DNA of 64,000 nt from Labilibacter marinus (lineage in GTDB: Bacteria > Bacteroidota > Bacteroidia > Bacteroidales > Marinilabiliaceae), in NCBI RefSeq assembly GCF_001659685.2, contig NZ_LXYE02000049.1:1-64000 (forward strand). Reading direction: 5' to 3'. Shown piece by piece: positions 4,430 through 24,811 of the stretch. The translations under genes and the position numbers were made by a program. The notes under the pieces were generated by a model that was not told the DNA's origin, did no database searches, and saw only the letters and a program-made list of their open reading frames with translations. The stretch's first letter is position 1, and each line of letters starts with the position of its first letter.

Positions 4430-6673
4430 TTATATGCTTTTATCTACATTGAATTTAATATTCTGTTTTTTATGACCGATTGTAATTTGTATAATATATA
4501 AGCCATCTTCCAGTTCGGAAGTATTTATACCATAGAAGTTAATAACATTCCCACTTTTAAGTTTGTTGCCAGCCGTATTGTAAATATCATACTTAGCTGG
4601 GGCATGTAAATTATTAATGTATAATACCGAATTAGCAGGGTTAGGATATACATTTACTTGTGTATCCATATTCTGATTAACCGCAGAGGTTTCTGCTTCC
4701 TTAAAAGATATCCAATTTAAATTGAATAAGTAACCGCCACTGCCTGTAAATTCTAAAAATATATCATGTACGCCGCTAATGTTATTTATGGTGTTTGTTA
4801 GGGTGACCCAGGTTTGCCATCCGTTTGTATTTGAAATAGGAATAGTGCATACAGGAGAACCTCCTCTTGAGTCGATATATAAACTAATGTTACCTCCACT
4901 TGCATCAGATGCAACGCGAACACTTATTTCACTAACACCCACTCCAAAATCAATCTGACTAAACTTGATATAATCATCGTTTTCAATATAGCCTATGTTT
5001 TGCCCACCTTCATTACAGTTCTCTGCTTTAATGCCTGATTGAACATCAAAATCTTCAGCTTCAATCGTTGATGTTGCAAGACGCAATGGAGGGCTATAGT
5101 TACAAATAGCCACAATCTCGTCTCCGTTTTCTATATCAGTGATCTCATCTACAGCTGCACCATTTAGCTGCCAACCTACAAATTCATGATTCACCAAAGT
5201 TTCAATGGTGAAATTATAGGATTCAGAAGCTGAGAATGGCAATGTTTTAGTCATGTTTGATTCATCACAAACTACTGAATTATTCATTTTTATTATCCCA
5301 TTACCTGTACCGTTTTTTGAAATAATAATTGAATTTTGTTTTACAAATTGAACCCAATTCAATACCATGATATTATCACTTCCTTTAAAAACACATACTA
5401 AATTATTGATGCCTGTTGGTTGCGTATTAATACTAGCAGATAGGGTTTGCCAACTTGATAATCCACCAGTATTAGGTACATCAATAGTGCTTAATAGCTG
5501 TCCCGAGTTTGAGCCCAGCCTTATCTCTATCTGTCCTCCAGAAGTATTGCTGGCTGCTCGCACTAAAACTTTAGAATAGTTTTCAGATGCAAAATCTACA
5601 TCATTATACTTTATCCAACCATTGTTTCTTATTTGTTCTGTTTTAAACCCAGCAGGCTCATTGTCGCTTAAAACATTAACCTCTACATTACTCTTGTCCG
5701 AATACCTGTCCACCTGAATATTTTCCCAGGCTTTTCTTATGCCTATGCCGCGCAGTGTGGGGGTAACCTTTTGTATACTGCCATCTGCATTAAAAAACAA
5801 CTTGTCAGCACACATAGATCGTAATGTTTTGTCGCTTGATAAATCTTCATGATGGTAAAAAATGTACCATTGGTTTTGGTATTCAACAATGGAGTGGTGG
5901 TTGGTCCAGCAGTCGGTCCAACGGTCCATAATTGTACCTTTCTGTGTAAAAGGGCCTAAAGGATTATCACCTGTAGCGTAATAAATCTCTTCAGTACCAT
6001 GAAGATCCACAGGATAGGTGAAATAATAGGTTCCATTACGTTTAAACATAAAAGAACCTTCCTTGTATTGTGTTTGTAGAGAAGTAACGGTAATAGGGTT
6101 CATGTCTGGCGTAATCATATCCTCTTTCATACGCATCACCTTTAAATTTTCTCCTCCTCCAAAGTATAAATATGGCGTACCATCATCGTCAATAAACATA
6201 CATGGGTCTATGCCATTGGCATGCTCTATAGGTTGTTGTACTGGAATATACGGACCTACGGGATCATCTGCAACAGCAACACCAATTTTAAAATCGCCTG
6301 GAAAATAGAAGTAATATTTACCATTCTTTGTATTACAATCTGGCGCCCACATGGCATATGAATCATTATCCACCCAATCTACATCCTTTTGGTCGAGGAT
6401 GACACCATGATCTGTATAATTGATTAAATCGGTGGTAGAAAATACGTGATAATCTCCCATCATAAAACCATTTTTACCAGAAAGGCCATCGGACTCCTGA
6501 ATATCATGAGAGGGGTAAATGTAGAGGACGTTATTAAAAACACGGGCAGTTGGGTCGGCTGTATATATATGGGTCACCAGAGGATTATCTGCCAATACAT
6601 AATTACTTGAAAAGATAAGAGAAATAAATAGTAATCTACTCCAATTTTTAATAGAATATGCGATACTTTTCAT
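4430..6673 (-). CDS. Secreted GH43 glycoside hydrolase with two CBM6-like modules and T9SS C-terminal domain
   Basis: Five-bladed propeller enzyme of family GH43 (arabinofuranosidase, xylosidase or galactosidase type), 747 residues. A signal peptide covers residues 1-28. Catalytic residues fit the family: Asp40 in TADPTARVF (base), Asp156 in GIDPCMF (pKa modulator) and Glu205 in YKEGSFMF (acid). After the catalytic domain (30-315) come a CBM6-like domain (about 325-447), a small InlB-repeat-like domain (about 448-528, VGWQLNG), a second CBM6 (about 532-655, starting TIEAEDFD) and a type IX secretion sorting domain (about 665-747, VNVYPNPANSVLYI). It should be exported by T9SS and anchored or released at the surface. 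It lies downstream of the membrane-bound regulator on the same strand, with a 299-bp gap. Substrate is not predictable beyond GH43. Confidence 0.88.
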   Translation of the reverse strand: MKSIAYSIKNWSRLLFISLIFSSNYVLADNPLVTHIYTADPTARVFNNVLYIYPSHDIQESDGLSGKNGFMMGDYHVFSTTDLINYTDHGVILDQKDVDWVDNDSYAMWAPDCNTKNGKYYFYFPGDFKIGVAVADDPVGPYIPVQQPIEHANGIDPCMFIDDDGTPYLYFGGGENLKVMRMKEDMITPDMNPITVTSLQTQYKEGSFMFKRNGTYYFTYPVDLHGTEEIYYATGDNPLGPFTQKGTIMDRWTDCWTNHHSIVEYQNQWYIFYHHEDLSSDKTLRSMCADKLFFNADGSIQKVTPTLRGIGIRKAWENIQVDRYSDKSNVEVNVLSDNEPAGFKTEQIRNNGWIKYNDVDFASENYSKVLVRAASNTSGGQIEIRLGSNSGQLLSTIDVPNTGGLSSWQTLSASINTQPTGINNLVCVFKGSDNIMVLNWVQFVKQNSIIISKNGTGNGIIKMNNSVVCDESNMTKTLPFSASESYNFTIETLVNHEFVGWQLNGAAVDEITDIENGDEIVAICNYSPPLRLATSTIEAEDFDVQSGIKAENCNEGGQNIGYIENDDYIKFSQIDFGVGVSEISVRVASDASGGNISLYIDSRGGSPVCTIPISNTNGWQTWVTLTNTINNISGVHDIFLEFTGSGGYLFNLNWISFKEAETSAVNQNMDTQVNVYPNPANSVLYINNLHAPAKYDIYNTAGNKLKSGNVINFYGINTSELEDGLYIIQITIGHKKQNIKFNVDKSI

Positions 6674-11402: not shown

Positions 11403-13721
11403 ATGATAAATAACGGTTTCTCCGAAGTCGAGAAAGTATATATTCAAAAGGCAGGAATTGAAAAAAATTCCACCGCTATACCATACATTACAGTGGATAA
11501 TTTTCCTCAGTTGGGAATGTTTGCTGCATTGAGGTTTTTGGAGTGGGTTGCTGAAAATCCTGAAGGCGTAACTAGTTTGCCTACGGGTAAAACACCAGAG
11601 TATTTTATACGTTGGACGCAATTTTTGTTGGAGAACTGGAATAATGCAAACGGAAAGAAAATAAGAGAGGAGAATGGCTTAAAGGTGGAAAAGAAGCCCG
11701 ATTTGAGCAAATTGCATTTTATTCAAATCGATGAGTTTTACCCGATAAGTTCGAATCAAAAAAATAGCTTCTACCATTATGTCAATGAATATTACATCAA
11801 AGGATTTGGCTTAAGCATAGATAATGCATTACTCATCAATTGTGATGAGATAGCGTTGGCAGAAGGAAAGACTTTTGCGGAGGTATTTCCTGATAGTATT
11901 GTAGACCTTTCGTTGCGCTATAGAGAAGCCAAAACAAAGCAAGAGAAAGAACAGCAGCAGTCCATTTTTATGATTGATGACTGGTGTGTGAATTATGAGC
12001 GTCAAATCCGGGAAAAAGGAGGAATAGGCTTTTTTCTTGGAGGAATAGGCCCTGATGGTCACATTGCTTTTAATACCCGTGGCTCTGACCATTTTTCAAC
12101 TACTCGCCTGACTAAAACTAACTTTGAAACACAAGCACAAGCTGCTGGTGATTTAGGAGGCATTGAGGTGTCCAAAAATCGTTTGGTTATAACCATCGGT
12201 TTGGGGTCAATTACCTACAATAAGGATGCTGTCGCGTTGATATTTGCTGCAGGAGAAGCCAAAGCACCTGTAGTTAAAAATGCTTTGGAGAGTAAACCGT
12301 CTGTTTTGTATCCTGCCACGGCACTACAAAATCTGCCCAACAGTAGGTTTTATATTACAAAAAGTTCGAGTGTTAAACTGAACGACAGTATTGAAGCTTA
12401 TTATAGAACAGGGGAGTGGACACAAGAAAAAACAGAAAGAGCCATTATTGACTTGTGTAAACGAATGAATAAGTATGGTCCAAAATTGGAGCTTTCTGAT
12501 TTAAAATTAGATATGTATTGTCGTTTGATACCTAACTTATCAATAGATACTGTACAAGAAGTTATTGAATCGGTTCAGGCCAAAATATACAAAGGCTTAA
12601 AGCCAGAAAAGAATCAGGTTTTCTATCATACAGGTCCACATCACGATGATATTCAATTGGGAATTCAGCCACATGTAAACAGAACGTTGAGGGAGACATC
12701 CAATAAGTCCATCTTTTCAGTACTTACCTCTGGCTTTACAGCAGTAACCAATGGTTTTGTTATAGATATTCTTAATTCTACAAAAAAGCTTTTAAATCAG
12801 GGTAGGATTCAAATGATTGAATATGCTGACTTTTATGAATCGGGTTATCTATTTAAATGGGATAAAGATGTTTATCATTTCTTGTTGAATGTAGCATCTG
12901 AAGAACCATTGGAAAAAGTGAGAGGACTTTGTCATAGGGTGGTTAGGGCTACTGTGCAAATATGGGAGGTAAAGGATAGTGAGCACTTAAGAAATACCAT
13001 CAACGCCATTCTTTCCAATATTAGAGATAGCTACGACGGACAAAAAAATCCACCTAACATACAGAAGTTAAAAGGAATGATTCGTGAGTTTGAGGAAGAG
13101 TTGGTTTGGGCTCATTCGGGTGTTCAGGTTAAAAACGTTCGACACCTTCGTTTGGGTTTTTATACAGGCGATATTTTTACTGAGCAACCCAACAGAGAGC
13201 GTGATGTGGCTCCTATTCTTGAAGAATTTAGAAAAGAAAAGCCAAGTGTCATTAGTTTGGCTTTAGATCCAGAGGGGAGTGGTCCTGATACTCATTATAA
13301 AGTACTACAGGCTATAGCCGAAGCTATTCGGGCTTGGAGCAAAGAAGAGGATTTGAGTCATTTGAGAATTTGGGGTTATAGGAATGTATGGTTTAAGTTT
13401 GCTCCTTCTGATGTTAATGTAATGGTGCCAGTTAGTTTGAATGCCATGGATGTTTTGGACAAATCATTTAGCGATTGTTACCTGAGTCAAGTAAATGCTT
13501 CATTTCCAAGTTACGAACTGGATGGAAAGTTTAGCACCTTAGCAAAAAATATATGGGTAGAACAACTAGATAATATTCAGTACCTCTTAGGAAAAGAGTT
13601 CTTTTATACCAATGCAAATCAAAGCATAAGAGCTAGTCATGGTTTAATTTTCTTTAAAGAAATGAATGTACAAGAGTTTCTGTTGCATGCTCGTGAACTG
13701 GAAAAATCAATGGAAGGGTAA
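11403..13721 (+). CDS. Glucosamine-6-phosphate deaminase-like (NagB) / PIG-L (LmbE) fusion protein
   Basis: A 772-residue cytoplasmic fusion. Residues about 30-325 are a NagB/6-phosphogluconolactonase domain with PTGKTPEYF near 60, QIDEFYP near 108 and the ring-opening motif LGGIGPDGHIAFN near 212-224 (His220). Residues about 400-770 match the PIG-L/LmbE deacetylase fold, beginning FYHTGPHHDDIQLG near 407-420 with the His-x-x-Asp-Asp metal motif. The two activities would deacetylate an amino sugar and deaminate glucosamine-6-phosphate, feeding GlcNAc from the neighbouring GH20 into glycolysis. The architecture is known in Bacteroidota, where some members are described only as NagB-like; activity of either half is not proven. 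No NagA or GlcNAc kinase is nearby. A hairpin with a T-run overlaps its stop. Confidence 0.82.
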   Translation: MINNGFSEVEKVYIQKAGIEKNSTAIPYITVDNFPQLGMFAALRFLEWVAENPEGVTSLPTGKTPEYFIRWTQFLLENWNNANGKKIREENGLKVEKKPDLSKLHFIQIDEFYPISSNQKNSFYHYVNEYYIKGFGLSIDNALLINCDEIALAEGKTFAEVFPDSIVDLSLRYREAKTKQEKEQQQSIFMIDDWCVNYERQIREKGGIGFFLGGIGPDGHIAFNTRGSDHFSTTRLTKTNFETQAQAAGDLGGIEVSKNRLVITIGLGSITYNKDAVALIFAAGEAKAPVVKNALESKPSVLYPATALQNLPNSRFYITKSSSVKLNDSIEAYYRTGEWTQEKTERAIIDLCKRMNKYGPKLELSDLKLDMYCRLIPNLSIDTVQEVIESVQAKIYKGLKPEKNQVFYHTGPHHDDIQLGIQPHVNRTLRETSNKSIFSVLTSGFTAVTNGFVIDILNSTKKLLNQGRIQMIEYADFYESGYLFKWDKDVYHFLLNVASEEPLEKVRGLCHRVVRATVQIWEVKDSEHLRNTINAILSNIRDSYDGQKNPPNIQKLKGMIREFEEELVWAHSGVQVKNVRHLRLGFYTGDIFTEQPNRERDVAPILEEFRKEKPSVISLALDPEGSGPDTHYKVLQAIAEAIRAWSKEEDLSHLRIWGYRNVWFKFAPSDVNVMVPVSLNAMDVLDKSFSDCYLSQVNASFPSYELDGKFSTLAKNIWVEQLDNIQYLLGKEFFYTNANQSIRASHGLIFFKEMNVQEFLLHARELEKSMEG

Positions 13722-13735
13722 GCTTCCCTGTTTTT
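13712..13735 (+). terminator. Possible intrinsic terminator
   Basis: The hairpin GGAAG / CTTCC with loop GGTAAG spans the stop codon of the NagB-like gene and is followed by CTG and five T. The stem is short (5 bp), so strength is uncertain, but its place at the end of the glycan operon suits a terminator. Confidence 0.4.
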
Positions 13736-13806
13736 AGTGCAGATTTAAAAAATAAATTATCTTAAATTTAATCTCATAAACGCATAGAATCAATATAAAC
13801 TTATAA

Positions 13807-14358
13807 ATGTCAACAGATATTCTAACTCATATACCTGATTTACTAACTAAGCCTCGTAAATTTTTTGCTGAAAATATATTAGGTAAAGAATTAGGCTTAA
13901 GAGATTTATGTTTATTGTGCCTATTGATGTTCCCAACACTTACAATTTTTCATTTGATAGAAAGTAAAACTATATCTAGACTTCAATTTGGTGTAGGTAT
14001 TATAGCATATACAGCTTCGTTCTTAATTGGAACTATTCTATCATTTGTATTTCGAACATATTTCATTACTGCTTTACTTAACAAACTTGGATACAAATTA
14101 GATTATAAAAAGGTGGGAATGGTGGTAGGGGTTGCAATGTTACCAGTTATTGTAATGTTAGTTGTTCAGCTACTTATTCAATCTAATAATTATAATTTCT
14201 TGGTAGTTTATATTGCTAAAATCTGGAGCCTAACTATTATTTTTATTGGAATACATTCTATTTCTAAAGTTCGAATTTCAAAAGCGATTGTAGTGGTTGT
14301 AACATTATTAGGATTTGAAATAATGTTTAAATGTGCAATTGCAGGATTTGGAATATGA
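13807..14358 (+). CDS. Polytopic membrane protein, Yip1-like
   Basis: A 183-residue inner-membrane protein with about five hydrophobic helices (residues about 35-52, 60-85, 100-123, 133-150 and 158-178). The N-terminal segment DLLTKPRKFFAENI, an amphipathic stretch with P-x-x-FF before the first helix, is characteristic of bacterial Yip1-domain proteins. Their function is not defined. It follows the glycan operon after 85 bp and probably has its own transcript. Its stop overlaps the start of a 33-codon frame (ATGA), so a small partner may be coupled to it. Confidence 0.6.
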   Translation: MSTDILTHIPDLLTKPRKFFAENILGKELGLRDLCLLCLLMFPTLTIFHLIESKTISRLQFGVGIIAYTASFLIGTILSFVFRTYFITALLNKLGYKLDYKKVGMVVGVAMLPVIVMLVVQLLIQSNNYNFLVVYIAKIWSLTIIFIGIHSISKVRISKAIVVVVTLLGFEIMFKCAIAGFGI

Positions 14359-14456
14359 CCACCTCGCATAATGATAAAGAAATTGATATTGACGATATTA
14401 CTTATGTTGGATTTGATACCAGCTATGAGAATGAGTTGATTAAAAATATTTTATAA
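14355..14456 (+). CDS. Possible 33-residue acidic peptide, coupled to upstream membrane protein
   Basis: The ATG overlaps the TGA of the membrane-protein gene in the ATGA arrangement typical of translational coupling. The peptide (MTTSHNDKEIDIDDITYVGF...) is acidic, soluble and ends in LIKNIL. It has no recognised family and could be a true small subunit or the first piece of a lost gene. Only the overlap supports it. Confidence 0.3.
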   Translation: MTTSHNDKEIDIDDITYVGFDTSYENELIKNIL

Positions 14457-15130
14457 CAATAAATATTCCTAAATTGGGGGGAATTGGTAAATTTTGAACA
14501 GTAAAGCATTTAATATACAAACTGGCGGTTTGATAGTGAAGTGCCTTAAAATTCTGCATAGCGTATTTTAGAATTGTCTACAAATTATTATCTTATTTTT
14601 TGCCTAATTTCCTCCTTGATACTAACAGCTCATTTTATAATTACTATTTGCCTTTGCTCAGTCCCTGCTTGAAACAGCATTGCAGTTAGTTCATAAAAGT
14701 TACACCTGTTATTCGCAACTATAAGGCAAAGCGTTTGTGTACATTTTGCGAACAGCTTGCGAAGAAGTGCGAAGTCGCCCCGAAGCTTTTGCGAAGCGGT
14801 CCCGAAGAAAAGTCACACAAAATGCGAAAAACAAGCAAAAGTGGAATGAAAATAGCCATTTTTGGTCCTAAAGTGGGATCAAAACCCTCATTTTGGCCTA
14901 AAAAGTGGAATATAGGGGTGTTTTAGGCTAGTTTTGTGTTCTTTTTTTAATGTCTAAAAATGCAATCTATTGCTATGTATATAGTTACAGGTGTGAAAAG
15001 TTACAGTAATATTACTGTAACTTATTTTGCGAATGACTTTCTGTACATTCGTTTATATAAATCCAACAGATATGATAATAAATGGGGAAGATAGGAAACA
15101 GATGGGTGCTCTTATTGCCTGATTTTTGAA
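14457..15130. repeat. Gene-free interval with phased repeats and possible structured RNA
   Basis: No credible protein. From about 14746 to 14812 the motif GCGAA(G) or CCGAA(G) recurs six times at 10-11 nt spacing. A pair of similar blocks follows, TTTTGGTCCTAAAGTGG (about 14859) and TTTTGGCCTAAAAAGTGG (about 14892). ACACAAAA near 14813 can pair with TTTTGTGT near 14932, just before a run of seven T. GTTACACCTGT near 14699 faces ACAGGTGT near 14988. Together these suggest a folded noncoding RNA or a decayed repeat element. I do not recognise a known RNA family. Confidence 0.4.
14998..15023. promoter_or_regulatory. 26-bp perfect palindrome
   Basis: Perfect uninterrupted inverted repeat of 13 bp per arm, centred between 15010 and 15011, with arm AAGTTACAGTAAT. 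With no loop it is more likely a protein-binding site for a dimer or a cruciform than a terminator. It lies about 410 bp before the mapped iorA promoter and 110 bp before a small frame. Confidence 0.45.
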
Positions 15131-15271
15131 ATGAGTGAAAATAATCAGCTGATCAGTTTTGTAAGATGTATATTTACTATAGCAAAAAGAGTAAGGTTGT
15201 TTTCTGATCATTTATTTAATGAAGACAGTTATATATTCAACACCATTTCAGATGTTTTAAAAGAATGTTAA
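15131..15271 (+). CDS. Possible 46-residue small protein upstream of iorA
   Basis: The frame starts ATGAGTGAAAATAATCAG and encodes a small mixed-charge helical peptide (MSENNQLISFVRCIFTIAKR then VRLFSDHLF...) ending KEC. No family is recognised and no coupling to a neighbour is seen. It may be a chance frame in AT-rich DNA. Confidence 0.2.
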   Translation: MSENNQLISFVRCIFTIAKRVRLFSDHLFNEDSYIFNTISDVLKEC

Positions 15272-15409
15272 CGCAAAAGAAGATATTTCTATTCTCGTTA
15301 TAAAATGTTAGATTGTATTTTTAAATGTCTATCAGCACAGTGACTTTATAAAAACTTAATGATTTACGCATAATAATACCGTTGATTTTTAATTAAAGTG
15401 CTATCCGAA

Positions 15410-15440
15410 TTTGTTGCAGACTATAATTTATCTATTTTTG
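15410..15440 (+). promoter_or_regulatory. Promoter of the ior operon
   Basis: TTTG at 15410-15413, a 19-nt spacer and TATTTTTG at 15433-15440 match the Bacteroidota -33/-7 consensus exactly. The start codon of iorA lies 39 nt downstream, giving a leader of about 30 nt. Confidence 0.65.
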
Positions 15441-15479
15441 GCGATTGTTACAAAACATTGATATAAGTCATCTTTTAAT

Positions 15480-17285
15480 ATGAAGACAGGAAATGAGTTT
15501 ACCGCAGTAAAAATGATGAATGGTAACGAAGCCGTTGCCAGAGGAGCGTTTGAAGCAGGTGTGAAAGTTGCTGCCGGATTTCCGGGTACTCCTTCCACGG
15601 AGGTAATGGATTATACGCAACATAAATATCCAGAAATCTATTGTGAATGGTCGACTAACGAGAAAGTGGGTTTAGAAGTAGCTATTGGCGCTTCATTCGC
15701 TGGTTATCGGAGTCTGGCCATAATGAAAACGGTGGGTTTACACGTAGCTGCTGATGCTTTAGGAGGTGCTGCAGGTAGTCAGATAAATGGTGGATTGGTA
15801 TTGGTTGTAGGTGATGATGTGGGTCGTATTGCAGGTGATGATTATAACGATGTTCGCCATTATGGGAATATGTTTAATATTCCGGTATTGGAGCCAAGTG
15901 ACAGTCAGGAGGCCAAAGATCTTATGGTTAAGGCATTCGAAATTAGCGAAGAATATAGTACTCCAGTTATCTTAAAAATTACATCTGTAATATGTAAAAC
16001 AACTAGTAAAGTTGAATATGACGAAGACTATACTTATCAAGTCAAATGCAGAGAAATATATCCAGTAAGTTTCAGTAAGGTTATAATGACAACCATTATG
16101 ACTAAAGCTAAAGGTTCTGAACATCCAAAGTTGACCAAATGCTTTAATGACTTTACGGCTAATATGAAGCGCTTAGCTCAGAATAGCAATGACTTTGATA
16201 TGAATAGGCTAGAGCTTAACGATAAAAAGATTGGTGTTATAACTGCAGGTACGCCATACTACTACGTTAAGGAAGTATTACCTGAAGCTTCGGTTTTAAA
16301 ACTGGGATTGGTTATGCCACTTCCAGAAAAGATGATTAAAGAGTTGGCCGAACATGTAGATGAACTCTATGTAATTGAAGATGGCCATGATCTTCTGGAA
16401 AAGAACATCAAGGATTTAGGAGTTTCAGTAATTGGAAAAGAACTATTTCCTAAGTTTCCTGATATGATGCGTTTTACACCAGATGTTATTGAGGAAAAAC
16501 TTGTTCCTAATGCACCTAAAAGAACGCCGATAGAAGGAGTTCCTTTCAGACTTCCGGTAAGTTGTGCGGGTTGTTCTCACCTTTTTATTTCGCAAATTTT
16601 AAGAAAACATAAAATAAAGGCTGCTGCCGATGTTACCTGTGGTTTAATCGGTTGTTTTCCTCATATGGAGTCCTATTCTTTACAAAAATGTATGGGTTCC
16701 AGTATTGCCTTGGCTCATGGATACAACATAGCTAAGGATCACAAGGAAAACTTTGTGGCTATGATTGGCGATGGTGGTTTTTGGGCAACAGGAATCAATG
16801 GATTGATGAACCTGATATTCAATGACAGTAAATCAACCGTAATTATTGTTGATAACAGCTGTCTTGCTATGACGGGGGGACAGAATGTAGCCTCTAGTGA
16901 GTTTGGGTTTAATTACAAACCTGAAAACAAACTGGATATTGCTACGGTATGCGAAGCCATTGGTGTTAAAGATATTGTTACTGTTGATGCTTACGAGTTT
17001 GATGATTTAGAGAAATCCATCCTTAATGCGGTAAGTGCAGAAACCAATTCTGTAGTCATTGTTAAAAAACCATGTGTTACAAAATTCAAACTTCCTAAAG
17101 AAACACCAAGTTACATTGACCAAGACAAATGTGTTAAATGCAGAAAGTGTATAGATGTTGGATGTTTAGCTATTGAGAGTAAAAAAGCAGAGGATGGATC
17201 GGTTGAGATAGTTATTAACCAAGATATATGTACGGGCTGTAGGCTATGTTCTACTGCATGTAAGTTTGAAGCTATAAAATCATAA
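15480..17285 (+). CDS. iorA: Indolepyruvate ferredoxin oxidoreductase, alpha subunit
   Basis: The 601-residue large subunit of the arylpyruvate:ferredoxin oxidoreductase, which converts indolepyruvate or phenylpyruvate plus CoA to the arylacetyl-CoA, CO2 and reduced ferredoxin. The N-terminal pyrimidine-binding domain carries FPGTPSTEVMDY near 34-46. The C-terminal thiamine diphosphate domain has IGDGGFWATGINGLMN near 430. Two ferredoxin-type clusters close the protein: Cys551, 554, 557, 562 and Cys584, 587, 590, 594. Cytoplasmic, oxygen-sensitive, active as a dimer of IorA-IorB. It is 2 nt from iorB and heads an operon that continues with two unusual genes. In anaerobic Bacteroidota it may run in reverse for aromatic amino acid synthesis or forward in fermentation of aromatic amino acids. 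Confidence 0.93.
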   Translation: MKTGNEFTAVKMMNGNEAVARGAFEAGVKVAAGFPGTPSTEVMDYTQHKYPEIYCEWSTNEKVGLEVAIGASFAGYRSLAIMKTVGLHVAADALGGAAGSQINGGLVLVVGDDVGRIAGDDYNDVRHYGNMFNIPVLEPSDSQEAKDLMVKAFEISEEYSTPVILKITSVICKTTSKVEYDEDYTYQVKCREIYPVSFSKVIMTTIMTKAKGSEHPKLTKCFNDFTANMKRLAQNSNDFDMNRLELNDKKIGVITAGTPYYYVKEVLPEASVLKLGLVMPLPEKMIKELAEHVDELYVIEDGHDLLEKNIKDLGVSVIGKELFPKFPDMMRFTPDVIEEKLVPNAPKRTPIEGVPFRLPVSCAGCSHLFISQILRKHKIKAAADVTCGLIGCFPHMESYSLQKCMGSSIALAHGYNIAKDHKENFVAMIGDGGFWATGINGLMNLIFNDSKSTVIIVDNSCLAMTGGQNVASSEFGFNYKPENKLDIATVCEAIGVKDIVTVDAYEFDDLEKSILNAVSAETNSVVIVKKPCVTKFKLPKETPSYIDQDKCVKCRKCIDVGCLAIESKKAEDGSVEIVINQDICTGCRLCSTACKFEAIKS

Positions 17286-17287
17286 AA

Positions 17288-17899
17288 ATGCAGGACACAG
17301 GAAAAAATATTATAATTGCTGGAGTAGGAGGACAAGGTATTCTGCTTTTCAGTAACCTCTTAAGTAAGTTTTATATGAAACTTGGGTACGAGTTAAAAAT
17401 ATCTGATGTGATTGGCCTAGGTCAGCGTGGCGGGGGTGTTGAAAGTCATTTTAGGTATTCAGATAAACCTGTGCTGTCGCCGTTTATTAAAGCGGGAGAT
17501 GTGGATTACGTCATATCTTTTGAGCAAACGGAAACGCTTAGACATTTGCATGGCTTAAAAGAAGATGGCGTGGTTTTTTCAAGTACTTATGAATTAACTT
17601 CTACCAGTGTAAACACCAGACTTCAAAAAGATTTGCCTGAGTCTAAAACAGAGATGATAAAACGCTCAGAGAACGAAACATTTATTGTAGATCCTGAAGT
17701 ACATAAAAGTCCTGATTTTAATATCAACAAAATGATGAATGTTGTTATGCTTGGTTATTACGCTGAGTTCAGGGGCTATTCTCATGAAGAGATGATTCAA
17801 ATTGTAAGAGAAAGTGTTCCTGAAAAGTTTGTTGAAGGAAATATAATAGCATACAAAAAAGGAACAGAGATTGCTAACGCTGAACTTGCATCCAGATAG
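17288..17899 (+). CDS. iorB: Indolepyruvate ferredoxin oxidoreductase, beta subunit
   Basis: The 203-residue gamma-type (2-oxoacid:acceptor oxidoreductase, catalytic domain III) subunit that pairs with IorA. It has the family signature IIIAGVGGQGILLFSNLL near residues 8-25, then DVIGLGQRGGGVESHFRYS near 42-60 and a strand-rich core. It provides part of the CoA- and 2-oxoacid-binding site. Its ATG follows the iorA stop after 2 nt, in the order iorA-iorB seen in most genomes. Length is normal for the family. 33 nt separate it from the duplicated-domain protein, so all are likely one transcript. Confidence 0.92.
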   Translation: MQDTGKNIIIAGVGGQGILLFSNLLSKFYMKLGYELKISDVIGLGQRGGGVESHFRYSDKPVLSPFIKAGDVDYVISFEQTETLRHLHGLKEDGVVFSSTYELTSTSVNTRLQKDLPESKTEMIKRSENETFIVDPEVHKSPDFNINKMMNVVMLGYYAEFRGYSHEEMIQIVRESVPEKFVEGNIIAYKKGTEIANAELASR

Positions 17900-17932
17900 T
17901 CATCAATCAATAATAGTTAAGTTGTAAGAGAA

Positions 17933-18787
17933 ATGATCATGGAATTACCTAAAGGTGTTGTATTACTGGATAGTTTAGGTGATTTACAAGCTAACAATAC
18001 AAATCCAATTCTGGTCTGCGGATCTCATTGCGGAGGTAATAGGGATTTGGCCAAGCACGTAAATAACTGCCATGTAAAAGTGGTTTTTTTGAACAATGCG
18101 GGAGTAGGAAAAAATCAAGCAGGAATCAGAGGTCTTACCCATTATGAGGCTGAGGATATTCTGGCTTGCTCTGTTAGTCACAATAGTGCTGAGATCGGCA
18201 TTTCTCGTGATACCTGGCAAAGTGGAATCATCAGTCACGCTACACCTCAAGCTAAAGCTGCAGGAATTAAAATCGGTGATTCTGTAAAAGAGGCCGTTAT
18301 CAAAATAGCCCAAATTGTTGAGCTCATTCCATCTACACAAAACGATAGGAGAATAGATTCTTATTCAGAGAGCGAAGCAAAGGATAACAAGGCAGACTTA
18401 AAAAAACAGACTCAAACTCAAATAGACGGAATAGATGTTACAGTTACAGATAGCATCACTTTTTTAAATGAGAGTAATGCTGATGATATTGTTGTGTGTG
18501 GATCACATGGCGGTTTAAGTGCAGGACATTATGCCCAGAAGCGTAAGGTTAAAGCTGTATTTTTTAATGATGCAGGAATCGGTAAAAATAGTGCAGGTAT
18601 AAAAAGCCTTGAATCATTAACCGATGCAGGAATCCTAGCATGTACTGTTGACTGCATGAGTGCAGAGATTTTTAATGGGCAAGATGTACTTACTAATGGC
18701 ATAATTTCTGTTTGTAATCAAATAGCTAAAGACAGAAACATCAAAGAAAAAATGACGGTGATAGAAGCAGTTAAATTGATACTCTAA
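17933..18787 (+). CDS. Uncharacterised protein made of two copies of one domain
   Basis: A 284-residue cytoplasmic protein with two homologous halves (about 8-125 and 168-284) joined by a polar linker. Paired motifs are LVCGSHCGG at 28-35 with VVCGSHGGL at 187-195; LNNAGVGKNQAGI at 53-65 with FNDAGIGKNSAGI at 211-223; ACSVSHNSAEIG with ACTVDCMSAEIF; and SGIISH with NGIISV. The glycine-rich GSH-x-G loop and the N-x-AG-x-GK-N loop look like ligand or phosphate sites, but I do not recognise a named family or fold. The first half has an extra Cys in its loop, and the second ends its motif in Val rather than His, so the halves may have diverged in role. Between iorB and the MEKHLA gene it may act on or sense an arylacetyl compound. 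Function is unknown. Confidence 0.6.
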   Translation: MIMELPKGVVLLDSLGDLQANNTNPILVCGSHCGGNRDLAKHVNNCHVKVVFLNNAGVGKNQAGIRGLTHYEAEDILACSVSHNSAEIGISRDTWQSGIISHATPQAKAAGIKIGDSVKEAVIKIAQIVELIPSTQNDRRIDSYSESEAKDNKADLKKQTQTQIDGIDVTVTDSITFLNESNADDIVVCGSHGGLSAGHYAQKRKVKAVFFNDAGIGKNSAGIKSLESLTDAGILACTVDCMSAEIFNGQDVLTNGIISVCNQIAKDRNIKEKMTVIEAVKLIL

Positions 18788-18789
18788 TA

Positions 18790-19266
18790 ATGAACAAGAC
18801 TGGTTTATCGAATAGTGAAAATAGTTACCTAAAAGAATATATTCATCTAATCACCAGTAGCCTGAAAAAGTTGGCTAATATTGAGATAGTTGACTTTTCA
18901 TTGAGCATAGAAGAACAAGCCAAACAAGTTTTCAATTCCGATTACGTACTCTTAGCTCATAATGGTTCAAACGATCCCACATTTAACTACGCAAATCAAA
19001 AAGCACTTAGTCTCTTTGAAATGACTTGGGATGAGTTTACCAATATGCCATCTAAGTATTCTGCAGAAAGTGATGAGAGAGCTACAAGAGAACAATTTTT
19101 AGCTGAGGTTGCCGAGAAAGGATTTTCAAAAAACTATTCTGGTATTAGAATATCTAAAACAGGTAAAAGATTTGAAATAAGGAATGTAATCCTTTGGAAT
19201 GTATATGATTCAGAGGGAAATAGAATTGGTCAAGCAGCTATGTTCGATAAATATGAATATTTGTAA
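18790..19266 (+). CDS. MEKHLA-domain (PAS-like) protein
   Basis: A 158-residue protein that is almost entirely a MEKHLA domain, a PAS-related small-molecule sensor fold known from plant HD-ZIP III factors and scattered bacteria. Diagnostic stretches are LLAHNGSNDPTFNYANQKAL (about residues 55-74), SLFEMTWDEFTNMPSKYSAE (75-94), the RISKTGKRFEIRNVILWNVYD segment (about 123-143) and GQAAMFDKYEYL at the C-terminus. It has no DNA-binding or kinase part, so any signal must pass to a partner protein. It begins 2 nt after the duplicated-domain gene and is the last gene of the ior operon. A ligand such as an aromatic acid or flavin is possible but not shown. Confidence 0.8.
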   Translation: MNKTGLSNSENSYLKEYIHLITSSLKKLANIEIVDFSLSIEEQAKQVFNSDYVLLAHNGSNDPTFNYANQKALSLFEMTWDEFTNMPSKYSAESDERATREQFLAEVAEKGFSKNYSGIRISKTGKRFEIRNVILWNVYDSEGNRIGQAAMFDKYEYL

Positions 19267-19366
19267 ACTCGCTTACATTATCGAGAAATGACTTGCTAAT
19301 ATACCATGTTGCTTTTGAGGTTTTATTGGTTTAAACAAAAGAATAAAATTAGCCTAAAGGATAAAA

Positions 19367-20386
19367 ATGAATAATTACCTTTGGCCAGCATTTAATAACC
19401 GATATCACGGTTATAAGCCTCAAATACTTAAGCAATATATGCCTACCAACAAATACATTTATTCTTTTACCTACGACCTTACGGAAGGTGATTTATGCAA
19501 ACTCGAATCGAAGTATATCTTTAATGAGGAAGAAAAGGATAAACTACTTTTATCAACTATAAAGGTAGAACCATCTAGTAGTGCCTTTATAAAAAGTCGC
19601 TTGGATGTTATGGAGGCTTCGGAGGATTATGCTGAACTGATTGTTAAAATCAAAAATGAAAATATACATATTGAAGGTTTTAAAGTAGAATATGTGGTGT
19701 TACATGGCGATACTACAGAATATCCTGTGCGATTAACAAAACTTAAAGACATTGGTTTCAGCATTGAAGGTACGCCCGATTATTATAAACCTACCGTAAC
19801 CTATGGTTTATGTTACTTGGCGGGAGTTTGGTATTTTGGCATTTTAAATAAGGACGAATTCGATTGGCTTAAGCACAAAGAAAAACCTTGTTCTTATAGT
19901 AACTCCATCAATATAAATATAGCTAAGGCATTGATCAATATTGCTGCAGAAAGGGATAAAGAGAGAACTTTGTTGGATGCCTGTTGCGGGGTAGGTACCA
20001 TCATGTTAGAAGCTTGTTTTGCTGGAGTAGATATTGAAGGTTGCGATATTAATGCAAAAATATGTAGGCATGTACGTAAGAATTTAGCTCATTTTAATTA
20101 TTCCGCTGAGGTTTATAATTCTGATATCAAAGATATCAGTAAAAATTACGATGCGGCTATAATTGATTTACCTTACAATCATTTTAGCTATGCCCATGAT
20201 GATAGTATTGCTCATATTATTGAATCTACGGCTCATATTAGCAAGCGTTTGGTAATAGTTTCAATAGTAGATATTGAAGAACAAATAAGCCATGCTGGGT
20301 TGACCTTACTGGATAGTTGTAGTATCAAAAAAAGCGGCAAGGCAAAGTTTACCCGTAAAATATGGGTTTGCGAGAAGCATGTTTAA
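19367..20386 (+). CDS. TRM11-family SAM-dependent RNA methyltransferase
   Basis: A 339-residue methyltransferase of the UPF0020/TRM11 group. The N-terminal half (1-180) is likely a THUMP-like or substrate-binding region. The catalytic half has SAM motif I LLDACCGVGTIMLEA near residues 202-216, the acidic residue GCDIN near 226, and motif IV IDLPYN near 264-269, the (D/N)-x-PY signature of enzymes that methylate the exocyclic amine of guanine. The likely substrate is a guanosine in tRNA or rRNA. It lies 100 bp after the MEKHLA gene and faces the efflux operon, so it is probably an independent gene. Exact position of modification cannot be given. Confidence 0.75.
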   Translation: MNNYLWPAFNNRYHGYKPQILKQYMPTNKYIYSFTYDLTEGDLCKLESKYIFNEEEKDKLLLSTIKVEPSSSAFIKSRLDVMEASEDYAELIVKIKNENIHIEGFKVEYVVLHGDTTEYPVRLTKLKDIGFSIEGTPDYYKPTVTYGLCYLAGVWYFGILNKDEFDWLKHKEKPCSYSNSININIAKALINIAAERDKERTLLDACCGVGTIMLEACFAGVDIEGCDINAKICRHVRKNLAHFNYSAEVYNSDIKDISKNYDAAIIDLPYNHFSYAHDDSIAHIIESTAHISKRLVIVSIVDIEEQISHAGLTLLDSCSIKKSGKAKFTRKIWVCEKHV

Positions 20387-20459
20387 TTAATACTTTGTTT
20401 GAGTATACAGTACCATAAGCCTTTTAAAATATTTTCTCTTGCAGAAGATGAAAGGTAAT

Positions 20460-21662
20460 TTACAATTCCACTTTTAATAACTCAATGTAGGCTAATTTAT
20501 AAGAACGTTCTCTTTCTTGTAATTCATCCTCAATTTGATGATATGCCTCTAGTTGATTAAAATATTCCAACACAGAAATATATCCCTCTTCTAAAGATGA
20601 TGAGAGCTGACTTTCTATTTCTTCTTCACGAAAGCTATTCTTTAATAACTGCAGGATTTGTTTATTCTCGACTATTTCCTGATAAAGCTTTTCAAAATGC
20701 AGTTCTGCCAAAATACGTTTGTCTGCTTCGTAACTCTGTGCAAATGCTTTATTAGCTTTGGCTTGTTTTACAGTGTTTTTATTTTCCCATAAAGGAATAG
20801 ACATACCTAACGCTACTCCATTCATAGCTATTGATTGGTTCTCATCTCTTCGGTAACCTATAGAGAACTTAGGCCAAGATTGTGCTTTTGCCAAGCCTAT
20901 ATTTTTATCGCTGATCAGATACATAAATATGGCTTCATTTACACCTGTATTTTGCTCTACCCATTTAGATTTTAATGATGCTTTATTTAAAGAATCATCT
21001 TTAAATACCATATTTTTTGAAGAGATAAGCTGCATAACTCCTTCTTGTTTATCAACATCTCCAATGTAATAGGCTAATTCTTTTTTCGCATTAATGAGCT
21101 CTGTATGGTATTTATTGACTTTGCTTTGCAGAATGCTAGCTTCCATGTTAGCCTTAGTTAATTCTATACCAGAAATATCTCCAAGTTTAAACTTTTCTTG
21201 CATATGCATTTTAATGTTTGATATACGAGAAGATCTTTCTTGATGTATGTTAAACATGTTTTTACAGTAAGTAAAATATACCAGCTTACTATAGGCCTTA
21301 CATACTACATCACGCTTAAAAAAACGTAATGAGGTTTCAAGTTGATCTTGTTCTAATTTTGAGATGTGACGTTTATTGGAGTATACAGTAGGAAAGTCTA
21401 GCTCTTGGGTAATTTCAATTTCTTGATTAAAACTATCTCCGTTATTGGTTCTGCTGATTCTGGCTTCGGGATTTTGCGGGTTTAAGTTTACTCTTGCTAC
21501 TAGTTTATCAGCTTCAATTTTCTCTTTATAAGCATTAAGGGTAGAGCTGTTGTTCTCGACTAAATCTATAAAGTCCTGATTAAAGGGTAATTCTTGAGCT
21601 TGACTATACATGTAATTTACACCGAGTATAAATATGGTTGTTATTTTTACTATATATCGCAT
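20460..21662 (-). CDS. TolC-family outer membrane factor of metal efflux system
   Basis: A 400-residue outer-membrane efflux protein with a signal peptide (residues 1-22, cleavage near YSQA). Two long coiled-coil halves carry TolC/OEP repeats: LEARISRT-like start near 65, LGDISGIELTKANMEASILQ near 180 and EEGYISVLEYFNQLEAYHQI near 358. Each half gives the helical tunnel and beta-barrel strands. It is the last gene of the operon, 62 nt after the RND pump, and should form the outer channel of the tripartite system. Slightly shorter than E. coli TolC/CusC, as usual for CzcC-type proteins. It has no lipoprotein cysteine. Confidence 0.85.
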   Translation of the reverse strand: MRYIVKITTIFILGVNYMYSQAQELPFNQDFIDLVENNSSTLNAYKEKIEADKLVARVNLNPQNPEARISRTNNGDSFNQEIEITQELDFPTVYSNKRHISKLEQDQLETSLRFFKRDVVCKAYSKLVYFTYCKNMFNIHQERSSRISNIKMHMQEKFKLGDISGIELTKANMEASILQSKVNKYHTELINAKKELAYYIGDVDKQEGVMQLISSKNMVFKDDSLNKASLKSKWVEQNTGVNEAIFMYLISDKNIGLAKAQSWPKFSIGYRRDENQSIAMNGVALGMSIPLWENKNTVKQAKANKAFAQSYEADKRILAELHFEKLYQEIVENKQILQLLKNSFREEEIESQLSSSLEEGYISVLEYFNQLEAYHQIEDELQERERSYKLAYIELLKVEL

Positions 21663-21724
21663 ATTTTATGTTTTATATTAAGGTATAATGAATCTTATAG
21701 GGTTACTTTGGCGTGGATAGTAGA

Positions 21725-24700
21725 TTATCTATCCATTCGTTTTTCTCGTATCATAAATATGATAGGTAGTACAAATAAGTTAAGCAGGGTAGAACTTAGT
21801 AAACCTCCTAAAATTACAATAGCCATTGGACTTTGAATTTCGTTTCCTGCAGCATCAGAGGCTAAAGCCATAGGGATTAAAGCTAAAGCAGCGGTTAATG
21901 CTGTCATTAAAATTGGTATTAATCTATCACTGGAACCTTTTATAATTATATCATAATAATCAAGACCTTTTTCCTTTAAAGTATTATATCTAGAAACTAA
22001 TAAAATACCATTCCGAGTGGCTATACCAAACAAGGTAATAAACCCTATGATGGCTGGAATGTTAAGTTCTCCAAAAGTCATCCAAATAGCCATAACACCA
22101 CCTATTAATGCCAAGGGAAGATTCAATAATATAATGGCTGTTGTTGTAGTGTTTCTAAACTCCTGATACAAGAGCAAAAAAATAATAAGTAAGGCAAATA
22201 TGGAGGCTATCCAAAGTGTTCTGGAAGCTTTTTCTTCACTTTTAAACTGACCTCCATATTCAATAAAGTATCCGTCAGGTATATTTACTTTAGATGCAAT
22301 TTTACTTTGAATGTCTAATACCACGCTGTGCACATCTCGCTCAGCTACATTGGCAGATACCACCAACTTGCGCCTAACATTTTCGCGGTTAATTACATTT
22401 GGACCAGATGATGATTTTACCTCTGCGACATAACGTAAAGGAACAGATTTTCCTGAAGCAGTAAATATCCGTGCATTTTTTATCTGCTCCATATTGTTTC
22501 TAAAAGATTTCTTAAAACGAACTTGCAAATCAAACATTCGTTCCTTTTCAAATACCGATGCAACAATATTTCCACCAAAGCCAGTTTCAATAAAGTTATT
22601 AAACTCGTTCATACTTATGCCATAACTATTTAAATTATGCTCTTTAGGTATGATTTTAATTTGAGAAACATTTACCTGCTGCTCGACGGCTATATCAACA
22701 GCTCCTTCTACGTCTGAAATAGATTTTTTTATTTCTTCTCCTAAAACATGTAGTTTCTCCACCTCAGGGCCGAAAAGTTTAATGGCAATAACTGCTCTTG
22801 TGCCTGACATCATATGGTTGATACGATGAGTAAGGGGCTGTCCTAATTCATAAACGATGCCAGGAATTGTATTTAACCTACTTCGTACTTCATTTAAAAA
22901 TGTCTCTTTATTCTTGTCACCTAACTGGTATGGCATATCAAACTCCATAGTATTTAAACCTGCTGAATGTTCTGCTAACTCAGCTCTTCCTAATCGCCCT
23001 TCAACGCTTCCTATTTCCTGAATAGACATGAGTACCCGTTCTACTTCGCGCATGGTTCTTTTGGCCTCAGGATATGATATGTCAGGCAAAGTTGTGACTA
23101 CAATAGTAAAACTACCTTCATTAAACTCTGGTAGGAAACTACGTCCAAATTGACCTAGTATTATCATAGAAACCAGGAAAATGAATGCCACAGATATTAA
23201 AATGACCTTTTTAAGATGCATGGCCTTTTCTAAAATTGTACGATAGAACTGTATTAGCTTTCTTTCTACAAAACTTCCATTGGCATGTTTCTTTAGTAAG
23301 CGTTTATTGGTTAATAGATACACCTCTAAAACATTAGTTAATGTCATGGCAACCACTAAAGAAGCAAAGAGAGAAATTACGTAGGTAAATCCCAAAGGCT
23401 TAAGCATTCTGCCTTCCATTCCGCTTAGAAAAAACAAAGGAATAAAAGCTGCCATAATGATGAGGGTGGCATTTACAATGGATGAACGAATTTCTAAAGA
23501 AGCATTGTATATCACTTTTATCTGACTTTGTTGCTCCTTTTCAGGTTTTTGGGCATTCTCTCTCAGTCGTTTATATACATTTTCTAAATCAACAATGGCA
23601 TCATCAACCAAAGAACCAATTGCTATGGCCATACCTCCTAATACCATGGTGTTAATGCCTAGTCCCATTAGTTTTAAGGTAATTACAGTAATTAGTAAGG
23701 AAACGGGAATAGAAATAAGAGAAATAATGGTTACCCTAAAATTCATTAAAAATATGAAGAGTATAATAGCCACAAAAATACCTCCTTCGAATAAAGCATC
23801 ACCCACATTGCCTACAGCACTTTTTATAAAACTAGCTTGTTTAAATATATCGCGATGAATAGTTATATGACTTGGTAAATTTGCTTGAATATCGTCTAGT
23901 GTAGCATCAATTTTCTCTGTTAAATCAAGGGTATTCGTTTTAGGTTGTTTGGTTACTAACATTACAACAGCATCAAGGGTTTCGTAACTAGCGCCTCCAA
24001 TGGTAGGAGCCGAAGCAATAGTTACCTCAGCTACATGATTGAGGCAGATAGGTTTACCGTTGGTTGTTTTGACTATTCTATTGCCTAATTTCTTCACATC
24101 GGATGTGCGTGCCATACCTCGAATAACATATCTGTTCCCATGTGCTTCAATAAAACTTCCAGATACATTCTTGTTTCCTTCGCTTAATATTTCAAGTAAT
24201 TCACCAATACCAACATCGTAATACGCCATTTTATGTGGATCAATATTGACCTGGTACTGCTTTTTTTCTTCACTATAGGTACTTACTTGAGCTACTCCTT
24301 CTATTGCTAGTAGTCTGTTTCGTATATTCCAGTCTGCTAATGAGCGTAATTCCATATTCGAAATAGAATCGGAGCTTAATGCTAAAATATAAATTTCACC
24401 CATGATAGATGATTGTGGCATTAAAGTAGGTTTACTAACACCATTGGGCATTCGGTCTGATACCATTTGCAGTTTCTCGCTTACAATTTGTCGGGCATTA
24501 TATATATCCATATCCCAATCAAATTCTACCCAAACTAGAGAAAAGCCTTGAGCGGATGATGAACGTACTCTTCTTATTCCTGTAGAACCATTAACCATGG
24601 TTTCTATCGGAAACGAAATTAAACGTTCTACCTCTTCGGGTGCCATACCTCGCGCTTCCGTCATAACAACTACAGTTGGTGCGGTTAAATCAGGAAATAC

Positions 24701-24811
24701 ATCTGTATCCATGTTGGCGGCAGTATACACACCTCCTATAGAGACGAGGATGGCTAAAACCAATATGAATAACTTATTATTTAAAGAAAACTTGATTATA
24801 TTTTTTACCAT
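21725..24811 (-). CDS. Heavy-metal efflux RND pump (CusA/CzcA family)
   Basis: A 1028-residue inner-membrane proton antiporter of the HME-RND family with 12 membrane helices and two large periplasmic loops. The N-terminus MVKNIIKFSLNNKLF and DVFPDLTAPTVVVMTEA are typical. The fourth transmembrane helix reads GSLVDDAIVDLENVYKRL, placing Asp and Glu residues in the proton relay. Pairs of Met are visible in the porter domain but I cannot assign copper/silver versus zinc/cobalt/cadmium from sequence alone. Full length, no frameshift. It pumps periplasmic or cytoplasmic metal through the adaptor at 24882 and the TolC protein at 20460. The histidine-rich first gene of the operon argues for a divalent or monovalent soft-metal substrate. 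Confidence 0.9.
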   Translation of the reverse strand: MVKNIIKFSLNNKLFILVLAILVSIGGVYTAANMDTDVFPDLTAPTVVVMTEARGMAPEEVERLISFPIETMVNGSTGIRRVRSSSAQGFSLVWVEFDWDMDIYNARQIVSEKLQMVSDRMPNGVSKPTLMPQSSIMGEIYILALSSDSISNMELRSLADWNIRNRLLAIEGVAQVSTYSEEKKQYQVNIDPHKMAYYDVGIGELLEILSEGNKNVSGSFIEAHGNRYVIRGMARTSDVKKLGNRIVKTTNGKPICLNHVAEVTIASAPTIGGASYETLDAVVMLVTKQPKTNTLDLTEKIDATLDDIQANLPSHITIHRDIFKQASFIKSAVGNVGDALFEGGIFVAIILFIFLMNFRVTIISLISIPVSLLITVITLKLMGLGINTMVLGGMAIAIGSLVDDAIVDLENVYKRLRENAQKPEKEQQSQIKVIYNASLEIRSSIVNATLIIMAAFIPLFFLSGMEGRMLKPLGFTYVISLFASLVVAMTLTNVLEVYLLTNKRLLKKHANGSFVERKLIQFYRTILEKAMHLKKVILISVAFIFLVSMIILGQFGRSFLPEFNEGSFTIVVTTLPDISYPEAKRTMREVERVLMSIQEIGSVEGRLGRAELAEHSAGLNTMEFDMPYQLGDKNKETFLNEVRSRLNTIPGIVYELGQPLTHRINHMMSGTRAVIAIKLFGPEVEKLHVLGEEIKKSISDVEGAVDIAVEQQVNVSQIKIIPKEHNLNSYGISMNEFNNFIETGFGGNIVASVFEKERMFDLQVRFKKSFRNNMEQIKNARIFTASGKSVPLRYVAEVKSSSGPNVINRENVRRKLVVSANVAERDVHSVVLDIQSKIASKVNIPDGYFIEYGGQFKSEEKASRTLWIASIFALLIIFLLLYQEFRNTTTTAIILLNLPLALIGGVMAIWMTFGELNIPAIIGFITLFGIATRNGILLVSRYNTLKEKGLDYYDIIIKGSSDRLIPILMTALTAALALIPMALASDAAGNEIQSPMAIVILGGLLSSTLLNLFVLPIIFMIREKRMDR

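Follow-up and report, generated by a model that had tools for sequence, protein, structure and literature searches.

Indolepyruvate:ferredoxin oxidoreductases (IOR) are encoded by iorA and iorB, and enzymes of this type are complete with two subunits. In the present study we have analysed a stretch of 64,000 nucleotides from Labilibacter marinus (contig NZ_LXYE02000049.1, positions 1 to 64,000; hereafter the window, contig C44 of a genome of 6.03 Mb that is 99.8% complete), in which an iorA-like and an iorB-like gene are followed by a gene for a two-domain protein of 284 amino acids, for which we use the working name DUP, and by a gene for a MEKHLA-domain protein. The four genes stand in tandem on the + strand with gaps of 2, 33 and 2 nt, and their coordinates and lengths agree with those given in an earlier note on this DNA. 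A comparison across genomes leaves us in little doubt that iorAB of this type and DUP are functionally coupled, and the three genes iorA-iorB-DUP appear to form a genuine, hitherto undescribed metabolic unit.

The linkage was followed in a sample of 61 relatives, where this IorA type was defined at an identity of at least 82%, and in named genomes, where 225 places encode DUP relatives and the best 80 were kept. The DUP clade comprises 39 loci (L042-L079 and L081) with an identity of at least 60%, the next locus standing at 34%; ten of the 39 lie in genomes that are also among the 61 relatives, and L077 and L081 come from one bin. iorB precedes DUP in all 37 of these named loci whose sequence extends upstream (the other two, L073 and L077, start within DUP), and iorA, whole or partial, is present in 36 of the 37, with L058 starting inside iorB. 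Measured between match ends, stop codons included, the distance from iorA to iorB is 4-14 nt over 36 loci (95 nt in one of them) and that from iorB to DUP is 21-1146 nt, with a median of 123, over 37 loci. MEKHLA is a neighbour in 7 of the 39 loci, several of which are short contigs, and no gene other than this one, iorA and iorB is shared by more than 2 loci. The order of the trio is thus kept although the iorB-DUP spacing varies and the surroundings change. In G024 (L022, the same genome as L066) a gene of 129 amino acids encoding a HEPN-domain protein (L022:1443-1832; PF05168, E 3.5e-15) separates iorB from DUP, and this genome has in addition a DUP piece of 44 amino acids at a contig end. 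In L074 a second, partial DUP match (11431-11601, 81% identity to residues 227-283) is located about 2.6 kb 3' of the full gene.

Among the 61 relatives this IorA type occurs in 12 genomes. DUP is encoded in 11 of the 61, all of them with this IorA and including the source genome, and it is placed 3' of iorB in the other 10; in the twelfth genome with this IorA, G002, the match ends at base 6533 of a contig of 6535 bases. DUP is absent from all 24 genomes whose sole IorA is of a type only 32-36% identical. In a sample of 395 genomes of the phylum the source genome alone has DUP (E<=0.001) and it alone has this IorA (E<=1e-80), and no DUP relatives were found in the viral contigs searched. The earlier note had named neighbours restricted to this strain as a result that would count against it, and the genome survey shows the opposite, both additional genes adjoining this iorAB elsewhere. 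Among the literature matches listed, titles and the opening parts of abstracts contain no description of an iorA-iorB-DUP unit. The unit is compact, recurrent and, within those matches, undescribed, which makes it worth following; moreover, with its small size, its constant order and its lack of further conserved neighbours, the trio lends itself to transfer into a laboratory strain and to testing as a whole.

A candidate Bacteroidota-type promoter, TTTG-N19-TATTTTTG (15410-15440, + strand; TTG from 15411), lies 69 nt 5' of iorA and fits what we take to be the consensus of this phylum. The earlier note regarded it as an exact consensus promoter. The pattern is indeed present and stands at a similar position in 21 of 33 orthologous loci, but its frequency in the window is that of chance (6 occurrences of TTTG-N17-23-TATTTTTG against 5.5 expected), and we have rejected the pattern by itself as evidence. 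The support for a promoter comes instead from the recurring position before iorA, as TTG-N18-24-TAnnTTTG is found 82-99 nt upstream in those 21 loci and in 2.3% of base-shuffled upstream sequence. In the iorB-DUP gaps of at least 85 nt the motif occurs in 2 of 23 (there are 24 such loci, L066 being left out). As far as the sequences go, this speaks for a promoter in front of iorA from which transcription would run on into DUP, and we infer co-transcription of the unit. A generic sigma-70 promoter scan (21 matches, 24.5 expected) and a terminator scan (4 matches, 3.2 expected) were near chance, no short repeats were found around the promoter and the iorB-DUP gap, and no Rfam family scored over its gathering score in 13500-20500.

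The iorA-like gene (15480-17285, + strand) encodes a predicted alpha subunit of 601 amino acids of a thiamine diphosphate (TPP) dependent 2-oxoacid:ferredoxin oxidoreductase, in which POR_N, TPP_enzyme_C and, in the C-terminal ferredoxin region, two Fer4 stretches were recognised by Pfam; the iorB-like gene (17288-17899, + strand) encodes a POR (gamma/beta) subunit of 203 amino acids (PF01558, E 9.8e-28). POR_N, TPP_enzyme_C and Fer4 in one chain with POR in the next constitute the IOR architecture of the 2-oxoacid:ferredoxin oxidoreductase superfamily. The subfamily is nevertheless divergent. IorA reaches 469 bits against the IOR_alpha equivalog TIGR03336, whose cut-off is 650.9, and a search of its own genome with this model gave 468.7 bits for IorA and 119.4 for the next match, with no second full IorA. 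IorB falls under all IOR-beta equivalog cut-offs among 25 of 26 families, the best being NF005325 (156 bits vs 230), and scores 102.1 bits against TIGR03334 (cut-off 205.8). Among solved structures two alpha subunits of other oxoacid oxidoreductases match IorA by sequence at E<=1e-10. A match similar to PaaK (phenylacetate-CoA ligase) at E<=1e-60 is absent from the source genome and present in 2 of the 12 that share this IorA type. With the equivalog cut-offs missed and no PaaK-like match, the arylpyruvate substrate is a guess from the gene name and a 2-oxoacid is the safer inference. The connection with arylpyruvate, arylacetyl-CoA or arylacetate drawn in the earlier note is thus not borne out, and its suggestion of a storage role found no support. 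The sequences suggest some 2-oxoacid as the substrate of IorAB, with ferredoxin as the acceptor.

A commoner, shorter IorA of related Bacteroidota (L134-L151) does not match over the ferredoxin region. It is found in 24 of the 61 relatives at E<=1e-40, all 24 alignments end before residue 545, where the ferredoxin region starts, and its open frame measures 535-566 amino acids in the 8 of 24 genomes looked at. At the same threshold the two types are found together in none of the 61 genomes (12 vs 24 genomes). A replacement of one type by the other was considered and set aside, the mutual exclusion having a p of 0.002 over the 61 genomes yet of 0.15 within the family.

DUP itself (17933-18787, + strand), the constant neighbour of this iorAB type, matches no named family at cut-off except marginally IMS. 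The internal duplication that had been noticed in it is real, since its halves align at 42% identity (E 6e-22), the N-terminal one (17945-18331) carrying a GSHCGG ... NNAGVGK motif and the C-terminal one (18404-18784) a GSHGG ... NDAGIGK motif. In a tree of domain halves, built on few columns, N and C halves are mostly separate and at least two label changes are forced, so that a single ancient duplication is not established. The structure prediction for the protein alone that the earlier note had called for gave a confident two-lobed α/β model (pLDDT 90.5, pTM 0.86) with a low-confidence linker at residues 135-155, and a single-domain model of the C-terminal half, based on 86 half sequences of 43 proteins, reached a pLDDT of 97.5 and a pTM of 0.92; a known fold did not emerge from it, Foldseek against the PDB returning no match at E<=0.001 for either model. 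Among the 50 PDB matches listed for the one-domain model the TM score by query length is at most 0.37. By sequence, no solved structure was found at E<=1 for DUP or for the MEKHLA protein, and DUP profiles against solved structures gave best E values of only 0.29 and 0.078. The match to IMS, the Y-family polymerase domain, is partial (25.2 bits, cut-off 23.2) and is present in 37 of 56 members of the family; the short stretch concerned also matches DNA polymerase IV structures at E 0.3-1.5. Being marginal and short, it was taken as a chance resemblance of a helix-turn segment.

Sixteen polar positions of DUP are kept in all 20 core proteins and in at least 29 of 36 distant aligned proteins, namely D13, S14, S31, H32, N54, K60, S85, D93 and S101 in the first half and D173, S174, S191, H192, D213, T238 and N262 in the second. 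The conserved Ser-His, Asp, Lys and Asn residues among them look catalytic.

The distant relatives of DUP come from 41 loci (L080 and L082-L121; 36 proteins aligned), whose surroundings were searched by tblastn with nine query proteins. Their hosts are Pseudomonadota, Latescibacterota, Poribacteria, Actinomycetota and others, and the proteins are 28-36% identical to the window DUP over both domains, the motifs GSHGG and NDAGxGK being common. Genes for acetolactate-synthase-like, E1alpha or E1beta proteins are present in 27 of the 41 loci, 25 of which have the acetolactate-synthase-like one; in 19 loci this match is at most 160 nt from DUP, 14 times on the same strand and 5 times converging. 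All three TPP_enzyme domains are present in both acetolactate-synthase-like proteins scanned. With one representative each, the NCBIfam scores were 372 bits for the acetolactate-synthase-like protein (cut-off 673), 308 for E1alpha (393.85) and 341 for E1beta (321, over the cut-off). No IorA, IorB or MEKHLA match was found in the sequence around the distant loci, and the neighbours tallied in those poor in TPP enzymes belong to scattered catabolic and transport families only. A cluster of DUP-family, acetolactate-synthase-like and E1alpha/E1beta genes recurs in Latescibacterota (L115, L116, L119, L121), and in Pseudomonadota (L100, L101, L112, L113, L118) the same DUP-family/TPP-enzyme cluster has in addition a galactarate-dehydratase-like gene. 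In Rubrobacter a single-domain DUP homologue of 134 amino acids (L107:8010-8414 and L110:8010-8414) is followed by a RuBisCO-like gene (PF00016), the frame of which stops early in L107. On two haloarchaeal plasmids (L033, L035) annotated genes for a RuBisCO-like protein and a four-carbon acid-sugar kinase lie downstream of a two-domain DUP. As distant DUP proteins stand beside other TPP enzymes and RuBisCO-like proteins, the family is not tied to arylpyruvates; the common element of its contexts would be, to judge from gene content, oxo-acid or enolate chemistry.

The fourth gene of the window (18790-19266, + strand) encodes a stand-alone protein of 158 amino acids that the earlier note had correctly recognised as a MEKHLA protein. 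It matches PF08670 with 169.2 bits (cut-off 23.7, E 6.5e-50) over positions 2-142 of 143 and is thus a member of that family; in Pfam it has a weak PAS_9 match and no other domain at cut-off, in line with the PAS-like character that we presume for the MEKHLA domain. Of 11 close genomes, the source included, 7 have the gene next to the trio, as have 7 of the 39 named loci, six of these being the same genomes, and both gene orders occur, with MEKHLA upstream of iorA in two relatives. Nine of the 12 genomes that have this IorA, and none of the 49 others, give strong matches (E<1e-40; Fisher p 1.3e-8 over the 61 genomes and 1.8e-6 within the family, phylogeny being ignored). Beyond the close relatives, MEKHLA at E<=1e-10 was found in 1 of 28 further genomes with this DUP, and at the same threshold it occurs in 1 of 395 genomes of the phylum sample, the source genome. 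Therefore MEKHLA is secondary and not part of the core, and the two additional genes are not the equal partners that had been supposed, DUP being present wherever the contig allows the test and MEKHLA being unfound in 27 of the 28. From its distribution it seems to be a rare, lineage-specific gene that accompanies the trio within a single host family, a later local addition. Off the trio, MEKHLA genes lie on other contigs with unrelated surroundings once in G018 and twice in G033 (L166:6861-7343, L167:6342-6818, L168:6595-7083). Weak matches (E 1e-6 to 1e-3) in four genomes without this IorA, in frames of 616-809 amino acids, were set aside as PAS-type regions within larger proteins; two of them are over the Pfam cut-off. 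On Rhizobium plasmids (L040, L041) MEKHLA genes adjoin a gene for a carboxy-terminal processing peptidase, with genes for PLP-dependent aminotransferases no more than about 6 kb away. Elsewhere in the window, the - strand at 20460-24811 carries genes for an outer-membrane efflux protein and for an AcrB-family efflux pump of 1028 amino acids.

We propose that the core is a three-gene unit, iorA-iorB-DUP, whose hosts are Bacteroidota, most of them anaerobes, and a few other bacteria from sediments; the unit would be inherited as a block and has probably also been exchanged as one between lineages. IorAB, of a divergent indolepyruvate-oxidoreductase type, most likely decarboxylates a 2-oxoacid on thiamine diphosphate, with the electrons presumably passing to ferredoxin and an acyl-CoA as the product. 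The DUP family would consist of one- or two-domain α/β proteins working with oxo-acid or enolate enzymes. In the window DUP most likely acts on the oxo-acid of its partner or on the product, isomerising, hydrating or hydrolysing it at a putative active site made of the conserved Asp, Ser-His, Asn/Asp, Lys and Asn residues, and in this way it may feed or drain IorAB. MEKHLA may, by its resemblance to PAS domains, be a sensor of a small molecule that was recruited to the unit in one host family. That DUP is an enzyme at all, its reaction and the signal or target of MEKHLA are conjecture, and to the accessory role of DUP on the oxo-acid of IorAB or its product we give about an even chance.

Several points weigh against this proposal. 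No member of the DUP family has an assigned substrate, product or activity, and the linkage would also suit a subunit with only a structural or regulatory role. No match to a TPP-enzyme query was found in the sequence around 14 of the 41 distant loci and around all 7 plasmid loci read (of 13 plasmid records), the counts of TPP-enzyme neighbours stand without a random-window control, and many of the 27 positive loci are near relatives of each other and so represent fewer independent events. The 5 converging pairs among the 19 adjacent ones do not form one operon, and at 28-36% identity the function of the distant proteins may not carry over. The genome counts take no account of phylogeny, and 12 of the 33 orthologous loci lack the promoter motif before iorA. 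Finally, the trio loci assigned to Kiritimatiellae (L065, L073) and to Phycisphaerae (L071) come from metagenome bins and could be mis-binned, and among 116 genomes of the class to which L065 belongs, that of L065 alone has DUP.

DUP might instead be non-enzymatic, a stable third subunit or a maturation factor of the oxidoreductase, with its relatives as subunits of other TPP enzymes. Its fixed order after iorB, the promoter motif before iorA and rarely before DUP, and partners that span three unrelated TPP-enzyme classes (IOR type, acetolactate-synthase-like and E1alpha/beta) would all agree with this; a third subunit is however not required by IOR-type enzymes, DUP relatives lie beside RuBisCO-like genes in loci without a TPP-query match, and the conserved Ser-His, Asp, Lys and Asn residues look catalytic. 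We consider this less probable, with a chance that is still appreciable. The cysteines allow another reading, in which DUP of the IOR-linked clade would have come to bind a metal or an iron-sulfur centre and would serve IorAB in electron transfer or redox sensing. The window DUP has eight cysteines, four per half, all of which are kept in at least 19 of the 20 core proteins (chance 0.0015 given 45% conserved positions) and each of which occurs in at most 5 of the 36 distant relatives; each half has one CxxxC pair, C29/C33 in the first and C237/C241 in the second. On the other hand a CxxC is absent, five of the cysteines fall within predicted strands, where they may serve core packing only, the core sequences are close to each other, and L080, the first distant row, is likewise rich in cysteines, with nine, although no iorAB was found in the sequence around it. 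This role is unlikely in our judgement.

The model of the earlier note, in which IorAB, DUP and MEKHLA jointly form a sensing, storage or product-handling unit for arylacetyl-CoA or arylacetate, can draw on the tandem of four genes in this genome and on the co-occurrence of MEKHLA with this IorA among relatives. The scores of IorA and IorB under the IOR equivalog cut-offs, the distribution of PaaK-like matches, the single MEKHLA among the 28 further DUP genomes and the other partners of DUP relatives make it quite unlikely. A neutral hitch-hiking of neighbouring genes without any functional tie is highly improbable; the distribution of MEKHLA by itself is patchy, and in two relatives the gene is located on other contigs, but the trio order is maintained over variable gaps and unrelated surroundings in 37 of 37 testable loci.

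Should DUP be an enzyme that acts on the oxo-acid, a subclass of IOR-type enzymes that would by name be taken for indolepyruvate oxidoreductases may use a different substrate, and there would be a testable role for a family that is labelled 'hypothetical protein' where it occurs in catabolic clusters. A still wider proposal, which we regard as rather doubtful, is that DUP typifies an undescribed enzyme family, possibly with a fold outside the PDB, that serves oxo-acid decarboxylating systems (IOR, acetolactate-synthase-like, E1 and RuBisCO-like) across bacteria and haloarchaea, and that in anaerobes it is the obligate partner of a new IorAB class with a cysteine-bound metal or iron-sulfur centre.

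Compared with known systems, DUF1805 (PF08827; structure 1qw2, TA1206) is the nearest named family to DUP. The match of the window protein is partial and under the cut-off (27.3 bits vs 29.5, only positions 38-63 of 64), DUF1805 matches at E<=0.01 are found in 49 of 56 DUP-family proteins, and 1qw2 is among the fold matches with a target TM of 0.60 for the full model and 0.44 for one domain (E about 0.3) but is absent from the lists of the DUP profile searches; a fold link between the models and 1qw2 is possible. With the MEKHLA domain proteins of PF08670 the window protein shares a full-length, high-scoring match, whereas it is stand-alone and the literature among the matches listed, as seen in titles and the opening parts of abstracts, concerns plants, mostly HD-ZIP genes. 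DUP-family genes in the catabolic clusters of Pseudomonadota, Latescibacterota, Actinomycetota and haloarchaea resemble the window DUP in both domains and in the motifs, and differ in having acetolactate-synthase-like or E1-type TPP enzymes, RuBisCO-like proteins or other catabolic neighbours. The indolepyruvate:ferredoxin oxidoreductases (TIGR03336/TIGR03334, PRK06853 series) have the same domain order and the same tandem iorA-iorB, while both window subunits score under the curated equivalog cut-offs. From the shorter IorA of related Bacteroidota, to which it is 32-36% identical, the window type is set apart by its constant association with DUP.

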